Below, in pieces: positions 7,960 through 22,830 of a DNA stretch of 22,830 nucleotides. The number at the start of each line of letters is the position of its first letter. Position 1 is the stretch's first letter. This DNA comes from a virus: IMG/VR virus record IMGVR_UViG_3300030098_007087, positions 96,758 through 119,587 of that record; one strand, 5' to 3'. The position numbers and the translations under genes were made by a program. The notes under the pieces were generated by a model that made no database searches, was not told where the DNA came from, and saw only the letters and a list, made by a program, of their open reading frames with translations.

Positions 7960-8077
7960 ATGAAGCGTTGGAAATTACAACCAGTCAGAAGATGCTGTAA
8001 AGGGTCCTAGCTCGAACGGGTCACGCCCGTATAAGGAAATAGATTATGTCAAAAAAACTTTTGAGAGAATATTATGA
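7960..8077 (+). CDS. Possible tiny gene split by a +1 frameshift (site of shift not resolved)
   Basis: ATG at 7960 has a perfect GGAGG at 7950-7954 with 5-base spacing, but its own frame gives only 16 residues (MKRWKLQPVRRCCKGS) before TAG at 8008. The +1 frame is open from 7964 to TGA at 8075-8077 and reads much more like protein: NQSEDAVKGPSSNGSRPYK then EIDYVKKTFERIL. It has no start codon of its own. Joining the frames near 7972-7976 would give a protein of about 38 residues starting MKRWKYNQSEDAV and overlapping the protease start by 32 bases. Explanations are a programmed +1 shift, a one-base insertion in this genome or assembly, or a real 16-residue peptide. The slot corresponds to small prohead core genes in T4 (67/68), but no homology can be claimed. 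Confidence 0.45.
8016..8030 (+). other. Short GC hairpin upstream of the protease gene
   Basis: acggg at 8016-8020 pairs with cccgt at 8026-8030 around a 5-base loop. No T-run follows, so it is not a terminator. It sits just before the ribosome site (AAGGA) of the protease gene and inside the +1 reading frame of the tiny gene. It could tune initiation or the frameshift, or be chance. Confidence 0.35.
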
Positions 8078-8648
8078 ACTTTGTGAAGGTGGTGTATGTC
8101 AAGACCTACTCACTGAGGATGAAAAGAAATTTGTGGCTACCGGAGGTATGATACTTACCGGAAAGCTGCAAGAAGCTGAAGTCCAAAATGGAAATGGTAG
8201 AGTGTACCCTCAAAAGGTCTTGCGTCGGGAGATGCAAAATTATGACAAGCTAGTTAGAGAGAGAAGAGCGCTTGGCGAATTGGACCACCCTGACGATTCA
8301 GTAATCAATCTCAAAAATGCATCCCATCTTGTGACGGAAGTTTGGTGGGACGGCAATTCAGTAATGGGAAAAGTAAAAGTGCTAGATACCCCCTCTGGAA
8401 AAGTCCTTAGATCTTTGGTTGATTCGGGCGTTTCTTTAGGAATTTCTTCGAGAGGCTTGGGGTCTGTATCTGAAGGTGCCAACGGGACTGTGACAGTTCA
8501 AGAAGATTTTCAACTTATTTGTTTTGATTTCGTATCTGAACCTTCAACGCCCGGAGCTTACATGGCATTACAAGAGGGTGTCGAAAAACAAATTTTTAGC
8601 AAAGCAGATAGAATCAACCGCGCTTTGAATTATGTTCTGGAGGATTAG
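8046..8648 (+). CDS. 21: Prohead core protease (T4 gp21-like)
   Basis: This is a 200-residue serine protease that sits in the prohead core, cleaves scaffold and capsid proteins and then degrades itself. Family marks in order: NGNGRVYP (residues 48-55), GELDHP with candidate catalytic H81, INLKNASH (87-94), and GISSRG with candidate catalytic S134/S135 (131-137). EDFQLICFDFVSEPS (153-167) is the conserved C-terminal strand. Length is close to T4 gp21 (about 212 residues). Three self-cleavage consensus sites (L/I-x-E|A/G) are present: LCE|G at 12-15, LQE|A at 41-44 and LQE|G at 175-178, in keeping with the family's autoproteolysis. The ATG follows an AAGGA site by 8 bases. The next gene starts directly after the stop. 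Confidence 0.94.
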   Translation: MSKKLLREYYELCEGGVCQDLLTEDEKKFVATGGMILTGKLQEAEVQNGNGRVYPQKVLRREMQNYDKLVRERRALGELDHPDDSVINLKNASHLVTEVWWDGNSVMGKVKVLDTPSGKVLRSLVDSGVSLGISSRGLGSVSEGANGTVTVQEDFQLICFDFVSEPSTPGAYMALQEGVEKQIFSKADRINRALNYVLED

Positions 8649-18613: not shown

Positions 18614-19141
18614 ATGTCAAGCTTTTGGTCAGATACACTTTTAGAGCCTAAAAGAAAATATAGATTCAAACTACTGATGGACGGTCAGCAACCATATGTT
18701 GTTACTAAGGTGAAAAATCCAGCGGTAAAAATTTCAGAAACACCACATAAATTTCTGAATCACACGTTTTATTATCCCGGCAGAGTGGAGTGGGAGCCAA
18801 TTGATATTTCTTTTGTTGATCCATCGGGTCCGGACGATCAAAGTGGGAGATTATTTGACGCCTTGAAAGATTCAGGGTATGCTAATCCTACCACCGATCA
18901 GTTAGCATTGGAAGGCATCTCGAAATTCTCAGCCACAGCATTTGGGGTTGGAAAAGTGAGAATTCAACAACTGGGTCTATCAGAGTCAACAGTCACTGAA
19001 CTAGTAGCAGAGGCAGAATGGGAACTTTTCAATGTCTTTTTTACAAGCATTTCATGGGGTGAATATGACTACAATGGTGAAGAAATGCTTGAGTGCAATT
19101 GTACGCTTAGATACGACTATGCTGAATTTAGAAACTTATAA
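18614..19141 (+). CDS. 19: Tail tube protein (T4 gp19-like)
   Basis: This is a 175-residue subunit of the inner tube through which DNA passes. It follows the sheath gene, as in T4, and its length is close to T4 gp19 (163). Features: an N-terminal SFWSDTLLEPKRKYRFKLLM (the common LEPxRxxRF start of marine tube proteins), HKFLNHTFYYPGRVEWEPID, the SFVDPSGPD segment, a central helix LFDALKDSGYAN, and C-terminal strands FNVFFTSISWGEYDYNGEEM and ECNCTLRYDYAEF. The paired final strands and the Y-N-G-E-E turn are typical of the Hcp-like tube fold. The start has AGGAGG with 7-base spacing. Expression should be high, and the gene has its own promoter-like element. Confidence 0.88.
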   Translation: MSSFWSDTLLEPKRKYRFKLLMDGQQPYVVTKVKNPAVKISETPHKFLNHTFYYPGRVEWEPIDISFVDPSGPDDQSGRLFDALKDSGYANPTTDQLALEGISKFSATAFGVGKVRIQQLGLSESTVTELVAEAEWELFNVFFTSISWGEYDYNGEEMLECNCTLRYDYAEFRNL

Positions 19142-19199: not shown

Positions 19200-20063
19200 A
19201 TGTCAATACGAAACAACGAAGAAAGATTGGGGGCTACCAAGGTCCAAGGAGATGCCCCCATTTCTGACCTACAGCAAGAACAAGAGGAACCAAAACCCTC
19301 CTTATCCTTTACAACTCCAACTGAAATTGTTGATCTTCCCTCCAAGGGGCTATACTATAGCGAGGACCACCCTCTTCATGGCAAGGACTCTATTGAAATT
19401 CGCTTCATGACTGCGAAGGATGAAGATATCTTAACATCAAAGTCTTTATTGAAAAAAGGTATTGCAATTGATAGGTTATTACAAAACATAATTGTCGATA
19501 AATCTGTCAACGTCAACTCTCTTTTGACCGGAGACAAGAACGCCCTTATTGTGGCGGCAAGAGTTACCGGATATGGGTCTTCTTATCAAACAAAAATAAC
19601 TTGCCCACAATGTGAAACACCCTCTACTGTTGAATTTGACTTAGAAGCAGGAAATATAAGAGAAAGTGAAGAGATTGAAAGCGTAGAAGACCAGAGCGAC
19701 GGCACATTTATTGCTACAACCCCCAGAGGCAACATCGCTGTCAAGATGAAGTTGTTGGATGGCACCGCAGAAAAAGCCCTAACGCTGCTCACTGCTAGAA
19801 AAAAGAAAAACAAACAACCAGAATCAACCCTCTCAGACCAACTCCGAATGGCTGTTGTTGCGGTTGAAGGGCAATCAGACCAAGAACTTATCAATATGTT
19901 CATTAAGTCAGTTCCAGCATCTGATGCTCGCTATTTGCGCGATGTATATGCAAGAAAGATGCCAAATGTTGACCTAAAGCACGATTACGAGTGCCAAGCT
20001 TGCGGCTACGAGCAAGAAATGGAGGTACCGTTTACCACTGACTTTTTTTGGCCTCAACGATAA
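19200..20063 (+). CDS. Baseplate hub/tail assembly protein (gp26-like) with four-cysteine zinc site
   Basis: This is a 287-residue protein. The first 35 residues are acidic and disordered. The conserved core starts TEIVDLPSKGLYYSEDHPLH, IEIRFMTAKDEDILTSKSLL and KKGIAIDRLLQNIIVDKSVN, which I recognise from proteins annotated as T4-type baseplate hub (gp26) in marine phages. C135-x2-C138 (CPQC) and C265-x2-C268 (CQAC) should bind one zinc. The protein ends FTTDFFWPQR. The stop is preceded by seven T (20043-20049), and a conserved-looking domain lies in the +1 frame just beyond it. Position between tube and tape measure is the usual slot of tail assembly chaperones. A gene symbol is withheld because the T4 equivalence is not certain. 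Confidence 0.82.
   Translation: MSIRNNEERLGATKVQGDAPISDLQQEQEEPKPSLSFTTPTEIVDLPSKGLYYSEDHPLHGKDSIEIRFMTAKDEDILTSKSLLKKGIAIDRLLQNIIVDKSVNVNSLLTGDKNALIVAARVTGYGSSYQTKITCPQCETPSTVEFDLEAGNIRESEEIESVEDQSDGTFIATTPRGNIAVKMKLLDGTAEKALTLLTARKKKNKQPESTLSDQLRMAVVAVEGQSDQELINMFIKSVPASDARYLRDVYARKMPNVDLKHDYECQACGYEQEMEVPFTTDFFWPQR
20043..20049 (+). other. Candidate +1 frameshift site (seven T)
   Basis: In the gp26-like frame the codons are GAC TTT TTT TGG. A Phe tRNA on the second TTT can move one base forward and still pair with TTT, after which reading continues GGC CTC AAC GAT into a long open frame. The -1 frame closes soon after, so it would not produce the same domain. A GGAGG at 20021-20025 is too far upstream (about 20 bases) to act as in the release factor 2 (prfB) frameshift. 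No clear downstream pseudoknot was found by eye. Confidence 0.6.
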
Positions 20064-20244
20064 TTATATTGAGAAGGTTTACGAACATTTCTTCTATTTA
20101 AAGTATTATGGTGGATGGAGCTTCATCGAGGCTTATAATCTGCCGGTAAAAATACGCAATTGGTTTATTTTCAAGCTAAACGAACAACTAGAAAAAGAAA
20201 AAGAAGCCATGGATAGAGCACAAAGCAGTGCCAAGCGTCGATGA
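20049..20244 (+). CDS. C-terminal extension domain made by +1 frameshift from the gp26-like gene (tail assembly chaperone-like)
   Basis: The +1 frame is open from 19978 to TGA at 20242-20244 and has no ATG or GTG before 20209. From 20050 it encodes GLNDNYIEKVYEHFFYLKYY, GGWSFIEAYNLPVKIRNWF and then a charged coil (LNEQLEKEKEAMDRAQ). I recognise the YGGWSF..AYNLP..IR.WF style from small proteins of T4-like marine phages. Read through the T run, the fusion would be 283 + 64 = 347 residues. Independent initiation would need a CTG (20038) or ATT (20068). Without this frame there would be a 247-base gap in a dense cluster. The arrangement parallels lambda G/GT, where a minor frameshift product chaperones the tape measure. 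The shift mechanism is inference; that the frame is coding is well supported. Confidence 0.75.
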
Positions 20245-20278: not shown

Positions 20279-20310
20279 TAGAGTTTGTGCATTCTTTGGA
20301 GGATAAGTGG

Positions 20311-20649
20311 ATGAATGACGAGCAAGACATCGTTGCCATTGATATAGATCTAGGCGTCAATCGACGCAAAGAGGTAAATGAAAGCTGGCTTGCCATGTTT
20401 GGCGGGGCAATCAAAATGATTCTTGGCAGCATGTTCGGGGGGAGCGTTTTACCTCCCAACGTTAGCGTCAAAGGCACTCCAAGCGAGGTGAGGTCATTTG
20501 CTAATGCCTTGCAGAAAGAAAAGAAATACATCGAGGCTTATAACAAGCATGGCTTGAATGATCCAAGGACCTATCGATCAAAATCTAACCTAAAGAATGC
20601 CGTCTCTAAATTTGAGAGAGCCACCGGCATAAAGTGGCCCTTCAAGTAA
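20311..20649 (+). CDS. Conserved marine-phage tail-region protein of unknown function
   Basis: This is a 112-residue protein. ATG 20311 is chosen because GGAGG at 20298-20302 lies 8 bases upstream. An in-frame TTG at 20260 would add 17 residues but has no ribosome site and overlaps the promoter-like element. Sequence: an acidic start (NDEQDIVAIDIDLGV), a Gly/Met-rich hydrophobic patch (FGGAIKMILGSMFGGSVLPP), GTPSEVRSFANALQKEKKYI, then GLNDPRTYRSKSNLKNAVSK and a C-terminal FERATGIKWPFK. I recall very similar proteins beside tape measure genes in marine phages, always unassigned. The position suggests a tail assembly or minor tail role. The tape measure starts 19 bases downstream. Confidence 0.78.
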   Translation: MNDEQDIVAIDIDLGVNRRKEVNESWLAMFGGAIKMILGSMFGGSVLPPNVSVKGTPSEVRSFANALQKEKKYIEAYNKHGLNDPRTYRSKSNLKNAVSKFERATGIKWPFK

Positions 20650-20668: not shown

Positions 20669-22830
20669 TTGACACCAGAAGAATTACAACAAGCGAAAGA
20701 CCGCCTAGCTGAATACAAGAGGGATTTGGAAAGCGTTTCTGAAGTCGATCAGGAACGTTTGAAAGCAGTTATGAAGCTGGAAAATCAGCTAAATGATGTT
20801 CAAGCCAAGCGATTATCTGATTTTCAACTACAAATGGCAGAATTTGACGAGATGGTCAAGGATTCTCAAAAAGAGATAGCCAGTCTAAATAGAGAATTAA
20901 CCGATGCTGAAAAAGAATATCGAGAAGCCAAAAAAACAGGCGATCAGGCAGCCATCGCTGCCGCCCAAGTCAAAATTGATTTGCTGGACGACGAGATAGA
21001 GAAACAAGAAGAAATAATTGAACTAGTCAAAGAGCAAAAGAAAGAACAAGAAGACCTCAACTCAACTACAGGAAACCTTATATCAACCCTTACAGGTGTC
21101 CAAGCCGAACAAACTGGTGTGATTGGTGCCATTCAAAAAAGCATGAACCAAGGAATGGGCTTTGGTGGAGCGATGAACGCCCTCATGGGCAGCATGACGA
21201 CTAGCTTTAAAGCCATAGTTACACCAATAAATGTTGTTGCCTCTATTGCTGCAAAAGTTGTCGAAAGCACAGTTGCTATGGTGATGTCAACAGACCAAGC
21301 ATTGGCAAACTTCAACAAACTAACAACTGCTAGTGGTAAACTAAATCGAGCTATATTTGAAGCCTCTGTTCAAACAAAGCAATTCGGTGTAAACATGGAG
21401 CAGACTGTTCAAGTTGCTGGAGAATTGTTCACTTCAATGACATCCTTCAGGGATATGACCGAAGAGACCGTAACAGAAGTAACAACGCTCGCCGCAGCTT
21501 TGAATAAAGTTGGATTGTCAACAAAAGACTTTGGTGAAATATCTGATTTAGCAATGAAAGGCTTTAGCATGAATCTGACGGAAGCGAACAACCTTCAGAT
21601 GGAGCTTTTAGGGGTCGCCAAAGACTTGAACGTACCATTGAGCCAAATTGGTGCTAATTTCAATTCATCTATGAATGAGCTAGCCAAATACGGACCAGCC
21701 GGAATTGAAGTGTTCAAAGAGTTGGCAGCAATGGCACAAGCTGCTGGTGTTGAGATGGAAACTCTTCTTGGTGTTGCAAAAGGTTTTGACACAATTGAAG
21801 GCGCAGCCGAAAAAACATCAAAACTCAATGCCATTTTAGGCTCAACAATGAATACAATGGAAATGCTGAATGCTACAGAGTCAGAAAGACTTATGATGAT
21901 AAAGCGCTCTGTAGAAGCCACTGGTCGGTCTTTCGATTCAATGGATCGACATGAAAAGCAAGCAATTGCAGCAGCAGCAGGCATTTCTAGCATGTCTGAC
22001 GCACAAAAGTTTTTCAACACCAGTGGGGCTGAGTTTGAAGCTCAAATGGCTAAACTAACAGGAGAGGCTGGAAACTTGGAGGACGCCACAGGCGCAGCAA
22101 CATCAATTACAGAAAAATTTAGGCTCATGATGGAAACCACAGCAGTTGCAATTATGCCACTAATCAAATTAGTGACTTCGCTGCTCTCCGCACTCCTGTT
22201 CCTTCTAACGCCAATTTTTGCAATTCTAAATGGTGTTATTGGAATGTCCGAAGCATTTGGAGAATTTATTGGAGTCGGAAAAGAAATGGGAATTCTACTA
22301 ACAGCAGGGGCTGTAGCCGGCGGCTTTTTCTACTTGAAGTTCTTATTGAAGGGAACACATATTGAAATGTTGAAAATGCTAAAAGCTACCTTCCTTACAA
22401 AAAGGGGGTTGATAGACTTTGCCACATCTATACCATCTATGCTAAAAACAGTGCTTGTCGATGCAAAAAATGCAATCATTGGCAAGGCGATGGCACTTAA
22501 GACTTCTCTTACACCATCTTTTATAGCAGCTAAAAGTAAGCTCATTGCTTTTGGGGGTTCAATCAAGACAAGTCTTATGGGGGCACTGACAGCAGCTAAA
22601 ACTGCCATTATTGCAAAAGCAACCGCACTCAAAACTACTCTCGTCGGAGCTTTGACTACTGCCAAAGGAGCCATCATCGCTAAAGCGGTTGCGCTCAAAA
22701 CTACTCTCGTCGGGGCTTTGGTTGCCGCTAAAGCAGCCATCATCGCTAAAGCGGTTGCGCTCAAAACTACTCTCGTCGGGGCTTTGGTTGCCGCTAAAGC
22801 AGCCGTCATCGCTAAAGCAGTTGCGCTCAA
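20669..22830 (+). CDS. Tail tape measure protein (partial, runs off the window)
   Basis: At least 720 residues are visible. TTG at 20669 is supported by GAGGG 7 bases upstream; no ATG is available nearby. Residues 1-130 are a charged coiled coil (DRLAEYKRDLESVSEVDQ and similar). A region of amphipathic helices follows (about 170-490), with ANFNKLTTASGKLNRAIFEA, FGEISDLAMKGFSMNLTEAN and AAAGISSMSDAQKFF, typical of tape measure proteins. Hydrophobic segments lie at about 490-525 (MPLIKLVTSLLSALLFLL) and 538-556 (ILLTAGAVAGGFFYLKFLL), probably used when DNA crosses the host membrane. From residue 600 a 22-residue Ala/Lys repeat runs to the edge. The protein sets tail length and occupies the tube lumen. 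It resembles tape measures of marine myoviruses more than T4 gp29. Confidence 0.9.
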   Translation, partial: MTPEELQQAKDRLAEYKRDLESVSEVDQERLKAVMKLENQLNDVQAKRLSDFQLQMAEFDEMVKDSQKEIASLNRELTDAEKEYREAKKTGDQAAIAAAQVKIDLLDDEIEKQEEIIELVKEQKKEQEDLNSTTGNLISTLTGVQAEQTGVIGAIQKSMNQGMGFGGAMNALMGSMTTSFKAIVTPINVVASIAAKVVESTVAMVMSTDQALANFNKLTTASGKLNRAIFEASVQTKQFGVNMEQTVQVAGELFTSMTSFRDMTEETVTEVTTLAAALNKVGLSTKDFGEISDLAMKGFSMNLTEANNLQMELLGVAKDLNVPLSQIGANFNSSMNELAKYGPAGIEVFKELAAMAQAAGVEMETLLGVAKGFDTIEGAAEKTSKLNAILGSTMNTMEMLNATESERLMMIKRSVEATGRSFDSMDRHEKQAIAAAAGISSMSDAQKFFNTSGAEFEAQMAKLTGEAGNLEDATGAATSITEKFRLMMETTAVAIMPLIKLVTSLLSALLFLLTPIFAILNGVIGMSEAFGEFIGVGKEMGILLTAGAVAGGFFYLKFLLKGTHIEMLKMLKATFLTKRGLIDFATSIPSMLKTVLVDAKNAIIGKAMALKTSLTPSFIAAKSKLIAFGGSIKTSLMGALTAAKTAIIAKATALKTTLVGALTTAKGAIIAKAVALKTTLVGALVAAKAAIIAKAVALKTTLVGALVAAKAAVIAKAVAL
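22466..22830 (+). repeat. 66-bp tandem repeat (22-residue, 2 x 11) in the tape measure gene
   Basis: Five full units start at 22466, 22532, 22598, 22664 and 22730, and a sixth is cut by the window edge at 22796. The core string aaaactactctcgtcgg recurs exactly 66 bases apart (22631, 22697, 22763). The last unit encodes KAAIIAKAVAL plus KTTLVGALVAA, two 11-residue halves each starting with Lys. Units 1 and 2 are diverged at the DNA level, while units 4 and 5 are nearly identical, indicating recent duplication toward the 3' side. An antisense open frame here is only a shadow of the repeat. Confidence 0.92.

Follow-up and report, generated by a model that had tools for sequence, protein, structure and literature searches.

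In a 2016 review, T4 figured as the exception among phages that make their tail assembly chaperones by G-T frameshifting (PMC5009743). Vladimirov, Gautam and Davidson (2022, Virology 566:9-15) later identified which genes of T4-like phages encode the short and the long chaperone, and in the papers that cite that work it is credited with describing T4-like phages with one short gene and one longer fusion gene (PMC10885494) and poly-T -1 signals in T4-like TAC-N genes (PMC12846349). Here, we analyze a gene resembling T4 gene 26 of a marine T4-like phage, in the last 22.8 kb of the 119,587-base IMG/VR virus record IMGVR_UViG_3300030098_007087, a stretch of 22,830 nucleotides referred to below as the window. 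The comparison of this locus with its relatives indicates with high confidence that the gene encodes a T4-type tail assembly chaperone, the short form of which is accompanied by a long form produced by a minority +1 slip on a TTT codon.

The gp26-like gene and its extension in the +1 frame

The product of the gene matches the Pfam family T4_baseplate (PF12322, E 4e-18) and the baseplate hub family phrog_150 (E 1.4e-19), and its residues Cys135, Cys138, Cys265 and Cys268 are invariant in 27 homologues (a zinc-ribbon gp26 homologue). The 3' end of the gene reads GAC TTT TTT TGG CCT CAA CGA TAA, with a run of seven T at 20043-20049, and the +1 frame is open from 19978 to 20244. Within that open frame, ATG, GTG or TTG occurs just once, as the ATG in ...EAMDRAQ late in the frame, at about residue 55 of the 65-residue extension domain. 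If TTTT is read as a single Phe codon, the computed product is a fusion of 347 residues. AlphaFold models of the two parts, made separately, reached a predicted local distance difference test (pLDDT) score of 82 for the short chaperone (TAC-N) and of 83 for the extension, which is predicted to form three helices. An earlier, sequence-only reading of this DNA had described a 287-residue gene ending at 20063 after seven T, an overlapping +1 frame without a usable start and a fusion of this length, and all of these points hold. It had also placed the extension immediately before the tape measure gene; this has to be amended, since a small open reading frame (ORF) intervenes and the tape-measure-like ORF begins beyond it (Table 1).

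Conservation of the phase and of the slip site

Relatives were collected in two scans of IMG/VR with the two protein parts, which found 313 and 171 encoding stretches. From each scan the 80 best were retained, and these 160 related loci together with the window form a set of 161, 126 of which are distinct over the junction. Kinship between the sequences is uncorrected in the counts for this window family, so simple probabilities drawn from them are unreliable. The extension domain lies in the +1 phase in 161/161 loci, and the 84 clusters below 85% identity are all alike; on this comparison, the arrangement is far beyond chance. The sequence TTYTTTTGG is invariant at the junctions, and the end of the gp26 stop codon lies 11, 14 or 17 nt past the first base of the +1-frame TTT. 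In the zero frame of the 126 distinct junctions, the first Phe codon is TTT in 112, which carry the full run of seven T, and TTC in 14, the second Phe codon is always TTT and the Trp codon always TGG, with a stop codon following within a few codons. TTC is tolerated, then, at the first Phe of the slip site and was never found at the second. Elsewhere in these genes, Phe is encoded by TTT 954 times and by TTC 336 times (26% TTC), and when it precedes a codon beginning with T the counts are 149 and 83, respectively. Differences between relatives within the extension number 965, 451 and 2992 at codon positions 1, 2 and 3, a bias which shows that the +1 frame behaves as a translated protein; by this measure, the extension is under selection at the protein level.

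The same phase was found in more distant phages. In the immuto group (Flavobacterium), 58 distinct loci all have the domain in the +1 frame, at the sites TTT CTT TGG, TTT TTT TGG, TTT CTA TGG and, once, TTT CTT TAC, and the majority use CUU U; re-pairing from CUU to UUU is known from prfB. Further +1 relatives are Mel-JY01, SP-15, LIS04, GXN1 and the metagenomic phage LR756508. The SP-15 family was represented in viral contigs by SP-15 itself only, and when bacterial and archaeal genomes were searched for hosts, only three contigs from metagenome-assembled genomes matched. One relative of the extension sits on a 2.85-Mb metagenome-assembled chromosome of candidate division WOR-3 (L362, CP070664.1), as a prophage or a misassembled phage. 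A conserved +1 shift by which a gp26 homologue with a zinc ribbon yields a pair of the G/GT kind, as the sequence-only reading had proposed, is supported by this comparative evidence, and the check that it had named, whether homologues keep the T run and the +1 phase, was positive for the phase throughout and for the seven T in the majority given above.

Candidate signals 5' of the slip site

Upstream of the P-site codon, 115 of the 126 distinct junctions have a GGAGG, at a spacing of 20 nt in 94 and of 26 nt in 21, and the density of this motif elsewhere in these genes is about 0.008 per window counted. Codon choice at the junction also departs from that in the rest of these genes, with Glu before Val encoded by GAG in 120/127 cases compared with 50/162 elsewhere, and Pro by CCG in 94/126 compared with 263/1769. 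A small hairpin is possible between GGAGG and the slip site in 105/110 distinct junctions; it is built from many different stem sequences and in most cases ends 1-2 nt ahead of the first Phe codon. The mean folding energy of the 17 nt 5' of the slip site is -4.31 kcal/mol, compared with -0.41 +/- 0.09 after synonymous randomisation and -3.12 +/- 0.13 when codons were shuffled within columns, and the 18-nt segment from codon 277 is the most extreme in folding energy of the 73 along the gene. RNAalifold returned no structure common to the junctions because the hairpin registers differ, and energy tests against controls were used instead. Downstream of the slip site, the window family has slight structure only (-5.15 compared with -4.36 and -4.51).

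The immuto group has the same layout in a weaker form (-3.79 compared with -2.34 +/- 0.26, and GGAGG or AGGAG in 33/47). Strong hairpins occur at the same place in LR756508 (-11.2 kcal/mol) and Mel-JY01 (-10 kcal/mol), and GXN1 has none there. At the family level, the 5' elements (GGAGG and hairpin) are, by these comparisons, conserved beyond what the protein sequence requires. A hairpin upstream of and beside a shift site, like an internal Shine-Dalgarno (SD) sequence, stimulates +1 and attenuates -1 frameshifting on 70S ribosomes (PMC6321510). Taken together with this conservation, these published experiments suggest that the upstream GGAGG and, in most relatives, the hairpin probably favor the forward shift.

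Homology with the chaperones of T4 and the cyanophages

PF12322 matches both T4 gp26 (8.8e-64) and T4 gp51 (3.9e-52). Two copies of this family are present in T4 and RB49 and one in KVP40, S-PM2, HTVC008M, phiM12 and phiW-14, and where just one copy exists, a small domain encoded in the -1 frame comes after the gp26 gene. Cyanophage-type loci (L200-L279) carry the -1 heptamer T TTT TTC at every distinct junction (T TTT TTT in phiM12), and in many of them no ATG near the gp26 stop is available to the domain that follows. They also have 3' stem-loops about 6 nt downstream of the slip site, as in L249, L258 and L262, and their 42 nt downstream give -10.1, compared with -5.9 and -7.4 for controls.

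With hhalign, the extension of the window family aligns to the cyanophage domain at 94% (1.2e-7) and to the immuto domain at 98% (5.5e-13), and the hidden Markov model of the cyanophage domain matches residues 207-246 of T4 gp51 (E 1.4e-6) and RB49 gp51 (1.2e-10), both at Z=1000, and also the C-terminus of RB43 gp51. Since the profile of the window-family extension had no significant match to T4 gp26, gp51 or gp28 as single sequences, the link to gp51 is transitive and passes through the cyanophage family. Judged by these homologies, the extension in the window is, transitively, the same domain as the tail of T4 gp51, and T4 has the gene in duplicate, with gp26 as the short copy and gp51 as the long one. 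The abstract of the 2022 study reportedly names T4 genes 26 and 51. The suggestion of the sequence-only reading that this locus could link T4 hub proteins to G/GT chaperones was right as to the link, which had, however, already been published, and T4 itself has the T-like domain, at the C-terminal end of its gp51. Less to be expected are the forward direction of the shift and the elements on the 5' side.

In a tree built from 52 N-terminal parts, the +1 and -1 types form two clearly separate groups, and the label changes three times in total, at 121Q, Atu_ph07 and LR756511, which are -1 types near the +1 group; the T4 duplicates are set beside KVP40 (84/46, weak). As to still more distant relatives, 44/61 members of the extension family weakly match Pfam DUF6760 (PF20546) at E <= 0.1 (best 1.8e-5), and a wider family of the domain by way of DUF6760, a family known from contractile injection system loci, is possible. 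The window extension itself (20047-20241) scores 15.4 bits, below the curated cut-off of 27. In the viral fold search, E3SMJ9, a 53-residue "Gp51" of Prochlorococcus phage P-HM1, appeared at E 0.56, which is not significant; this protein may be a -1-frame chaperone domain named as a gene.

Gene order and neighboring features

The features of the locus are collected in Table 1. The chaperone gene lies between the tail tube gene and the tape measure candidate, with the one small ORF intervening; this ORF is preceded by a GGAGG at 20298-20302 and had no Pfam or PHROG match. The tape measure candidate has the composition of coiled-coil and hydrophobic repeats and a weak match (E 2e-5) to the annotated immuto tape measure. 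At the contig end, this ORF contains a tandem 66-base repeat (22628-22830, 3.1 copies, 93%) that encodes an alternating hydrophobic repeat. Farther upstream, a tail-fibre-like ORF (784-1695) has a C-terminal Peptidase_S74 (endosialidase chaperone) domain, and a prohead core serine protease (8046-8648; Peptidase_S77, E 2.4e-33) is consistent with a T4-type order of head genes. Rfam and tRNA scans of the window returned no matches.

Table 1. Positions of the chaperone locus and the genes flanking it, counted from the first letter of the window.
Feature	Positions	Strand	Basis or remark
gp26-like gene, TAC-N, short tail assembly chaperone, 287 aa, two CxxC pairs	19200..20063	+	Pfam and PHROG matches
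SD-like GGAGG	20021..20025	+	Spaced 20 nt from the P-site TTT, on its 5' side
Possible small hairpin GGTA / TACC, between GGAGG and slip site	20024..20036	+	Weak in the window; strong signal at the family level
Putative +1 slip site TTT TTT TGG	20043..20051	+	TTY TTT TGG invariant in 126 distinct junctions
TAC-C, +1-frame extension domain that completes the predicted 347-residue TAC-NC fusion	20050..20244	+	Phase, pLDDT, homology
Small ORF, 112 aa from the ATG at 20311	20311..20649	+	Between chaperone and tape measure candidate
Tape measure candidate, 720 aa or more, cut off by the contig end	20669..22830	+	Position, composition, weak immuto match
Tail tube protein, directly upstream of the chaperone gene	18614..19141	+	phrog_4542 tail tube, E 1.8e-17

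Discussion

In the proposed mechanism, most ribosomes would stop at 20063 and release TAC-N of 287 aa. In a minority, the P-site Phe-tRNA on the TTT at 20046-20048 would re-pair with the TTT at 20047-20049, with TGG in the A site, and these slipped ribosomes would go on to complete TAC-NC, a protein of 347 aa with a helical T-like domain. If they act like lambda gpG/gpGT, TAC-N and TAC-NC would cover the tape measure protein and bring in subunits of the tube. The phase, the site, the coding constraint, both homologies and the 5' constraint are established by comparison of the relatives, whereas the shift itself and its rate are inferred.

Several observations weigh against this interpretation. 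The hairpin in the window, which overlaps GGAGG, is weak (-2.8 kcal/mol, z 0.22) and no stronger than those of shuffles, and a GGAGG at 20 nt lies at a greater distance than the SD element of prfB, which is only a few nt off. Fold searches against PDB and viral structures gave no significant match to known chaperones, with a weak, non-significant hint to the HK97 chaperone 2ob9. Finally, 86/126 relatives have an ATG in the +1 frame up to domain residue 12, only 9 of these 86 with an SD-like match, and in these relatives the domain could be initiated independently.

The last of these points bears on the possibility that the extension is a separate small gene, translated from its own, possibly non-canonical, start or by re-initiation near the gp26 stop. 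An ATG is found at the gp26 stop in the frame of the domain in the jumbo phages 121Q and Atu_ph07 and also in KVP40, phiM12 and phiW-14, and many +1 relatives have one at about domain residue 8. However, the window offers no start codon until late in the domain, 11/126 relatives have none up to residue 12, and conservation extends upstream through FFGL as far as the slip site. An independent start would neither fix TTY TTT TGG nor bar TTC at the second Phe, and we regard a separate gene as very unlikely. The same frame would be entered by a -2 shift, as proposed for phage Mu, which would add one residue and for which the seven T would permit re-pairing at 112/126 sites. At the 14/126 sites with TTC TTT TGG, though, Phe-tRNA would land on TCT, as opposed to TTT after a +1 shift, and the immuto-group sites TTT CTT TGG and TTT CTA TGG fit -2 badly and permit +1 (UUU to UUC at CTA); these sites count against a -2 shift, which we consider even less likely.

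Slippage could also take place in transcription, with RNA polymerase slipping within the run of T and an edited mRNA yielding the long form, as the homopolymer of seven T at most sites might suggest. Against this, sites with only four consecutive T (TTCTTTTGG, 14/126) or three (TTTCTTTGG) have the phase unchanged, and the recurring 5' features point to the ribosome, so that polymerase slippage ranks lower again in probability. Homopolymers are error-prone, and an indel from sequencing or assembly in this one contig could in principle have split a gene that is truly fused. This artefact, for which the sequence-only reading had named homologues as the test, is refuted by the identical phase of the 161 loci and the isolate genomes, and its probability is negligible. 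The minority +1 slip on TTT is thus the explanation that we prefer.

The strategy of two chaperone versions is known; the +1 branch with its recurring 5' cassette (GGAGG, small hairpin and slip site) seems to be new for this phage group. Neither the branch nor the 5' elements were found in the literature searched, whose coverage did not extend to the full texts of Vladimirov 2022 and Xu 2013/2014, which may already mention +1 groups. A large +1 branch thereby joins the T4-like chaperone family and reaches the same domain by a forward instead of a backward shift. The cyanophages have stem-loops 3' of the slip site, whereas the +1 branch has its cassette on the 5' side, and the two branches offer a compact natural system for the question of what sets the direction of frameshifting. 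We see about an even chance that the side of the hairpin sets this direction at one homologous FF position of the gene family, with GGAGG and a 5' hairpin giving +1 at UUU-Y in one major clade, a 3' stem-loop giving -1 at U UUU UUC in the other, and T4 derived from the -1 clade by gene duplication. If true, this would be a natural case of +1 frameshifting stimulated by an upstream hairpin in bacteria. The findings also bear on annotation, in that what looks like a gap ahead of the tape measure is, on the evidence of its conservation, coding. Existing annotation either omits the C-terminal domain of the chaperone or has it as a hypothetical protein of its own in immuto (L163), Mel-JY01 (L162), SP-15 (L167), LIS04 (L168) and GXN1 (L166), and in Mel-JY01 it is listed as a separate protein from a TTG.

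Comparison with known systems

Forward shifts have been described in other settings. Listeria phage PSA uses +1 frameshifting in phage structural genes, as proposed here, but on a proline codon and for its major capsid and tail proteins, with no chaperone involved (PMC5009743). In the haloarchaeal myovirus HSTV-2, a shift in the G-T region, reported as very likely +1, occupies the same position in a long-tailed virus, although of archaea (PMC5009743). The prfB gene of E. coli (RF2; CUU UGA) shares the P-site +1 slip and an upstream SD-like element, which lies only a few nt away there, whereas in the window family GGAGG is 20-26 nt off with a hairpin between. The chaperone of phage Mu enters the same frame by a -2 shift, while TTC and CTT variants of the type seen here fit +1 and not -2. 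Lambda gpG/gpGT, P2 and HK97 have, as predicted for the window, a short and a long chaperone produced by frameshifting at a low level in a gene ahead of the tape measure, and differ in shifting by -1. Closest are the T4-like chaperones, which have in common with the window the TAC-N family PF12322, the C-terminal domain (via the cyanophage family), short and, by prediction in the window, long forms, and a position near the tape measure; T4 itself uses two genes and other groups are cited as having poly-T -1 sites, whereas the window would reach the same end by a +1 shift at TTY TTT TGG.
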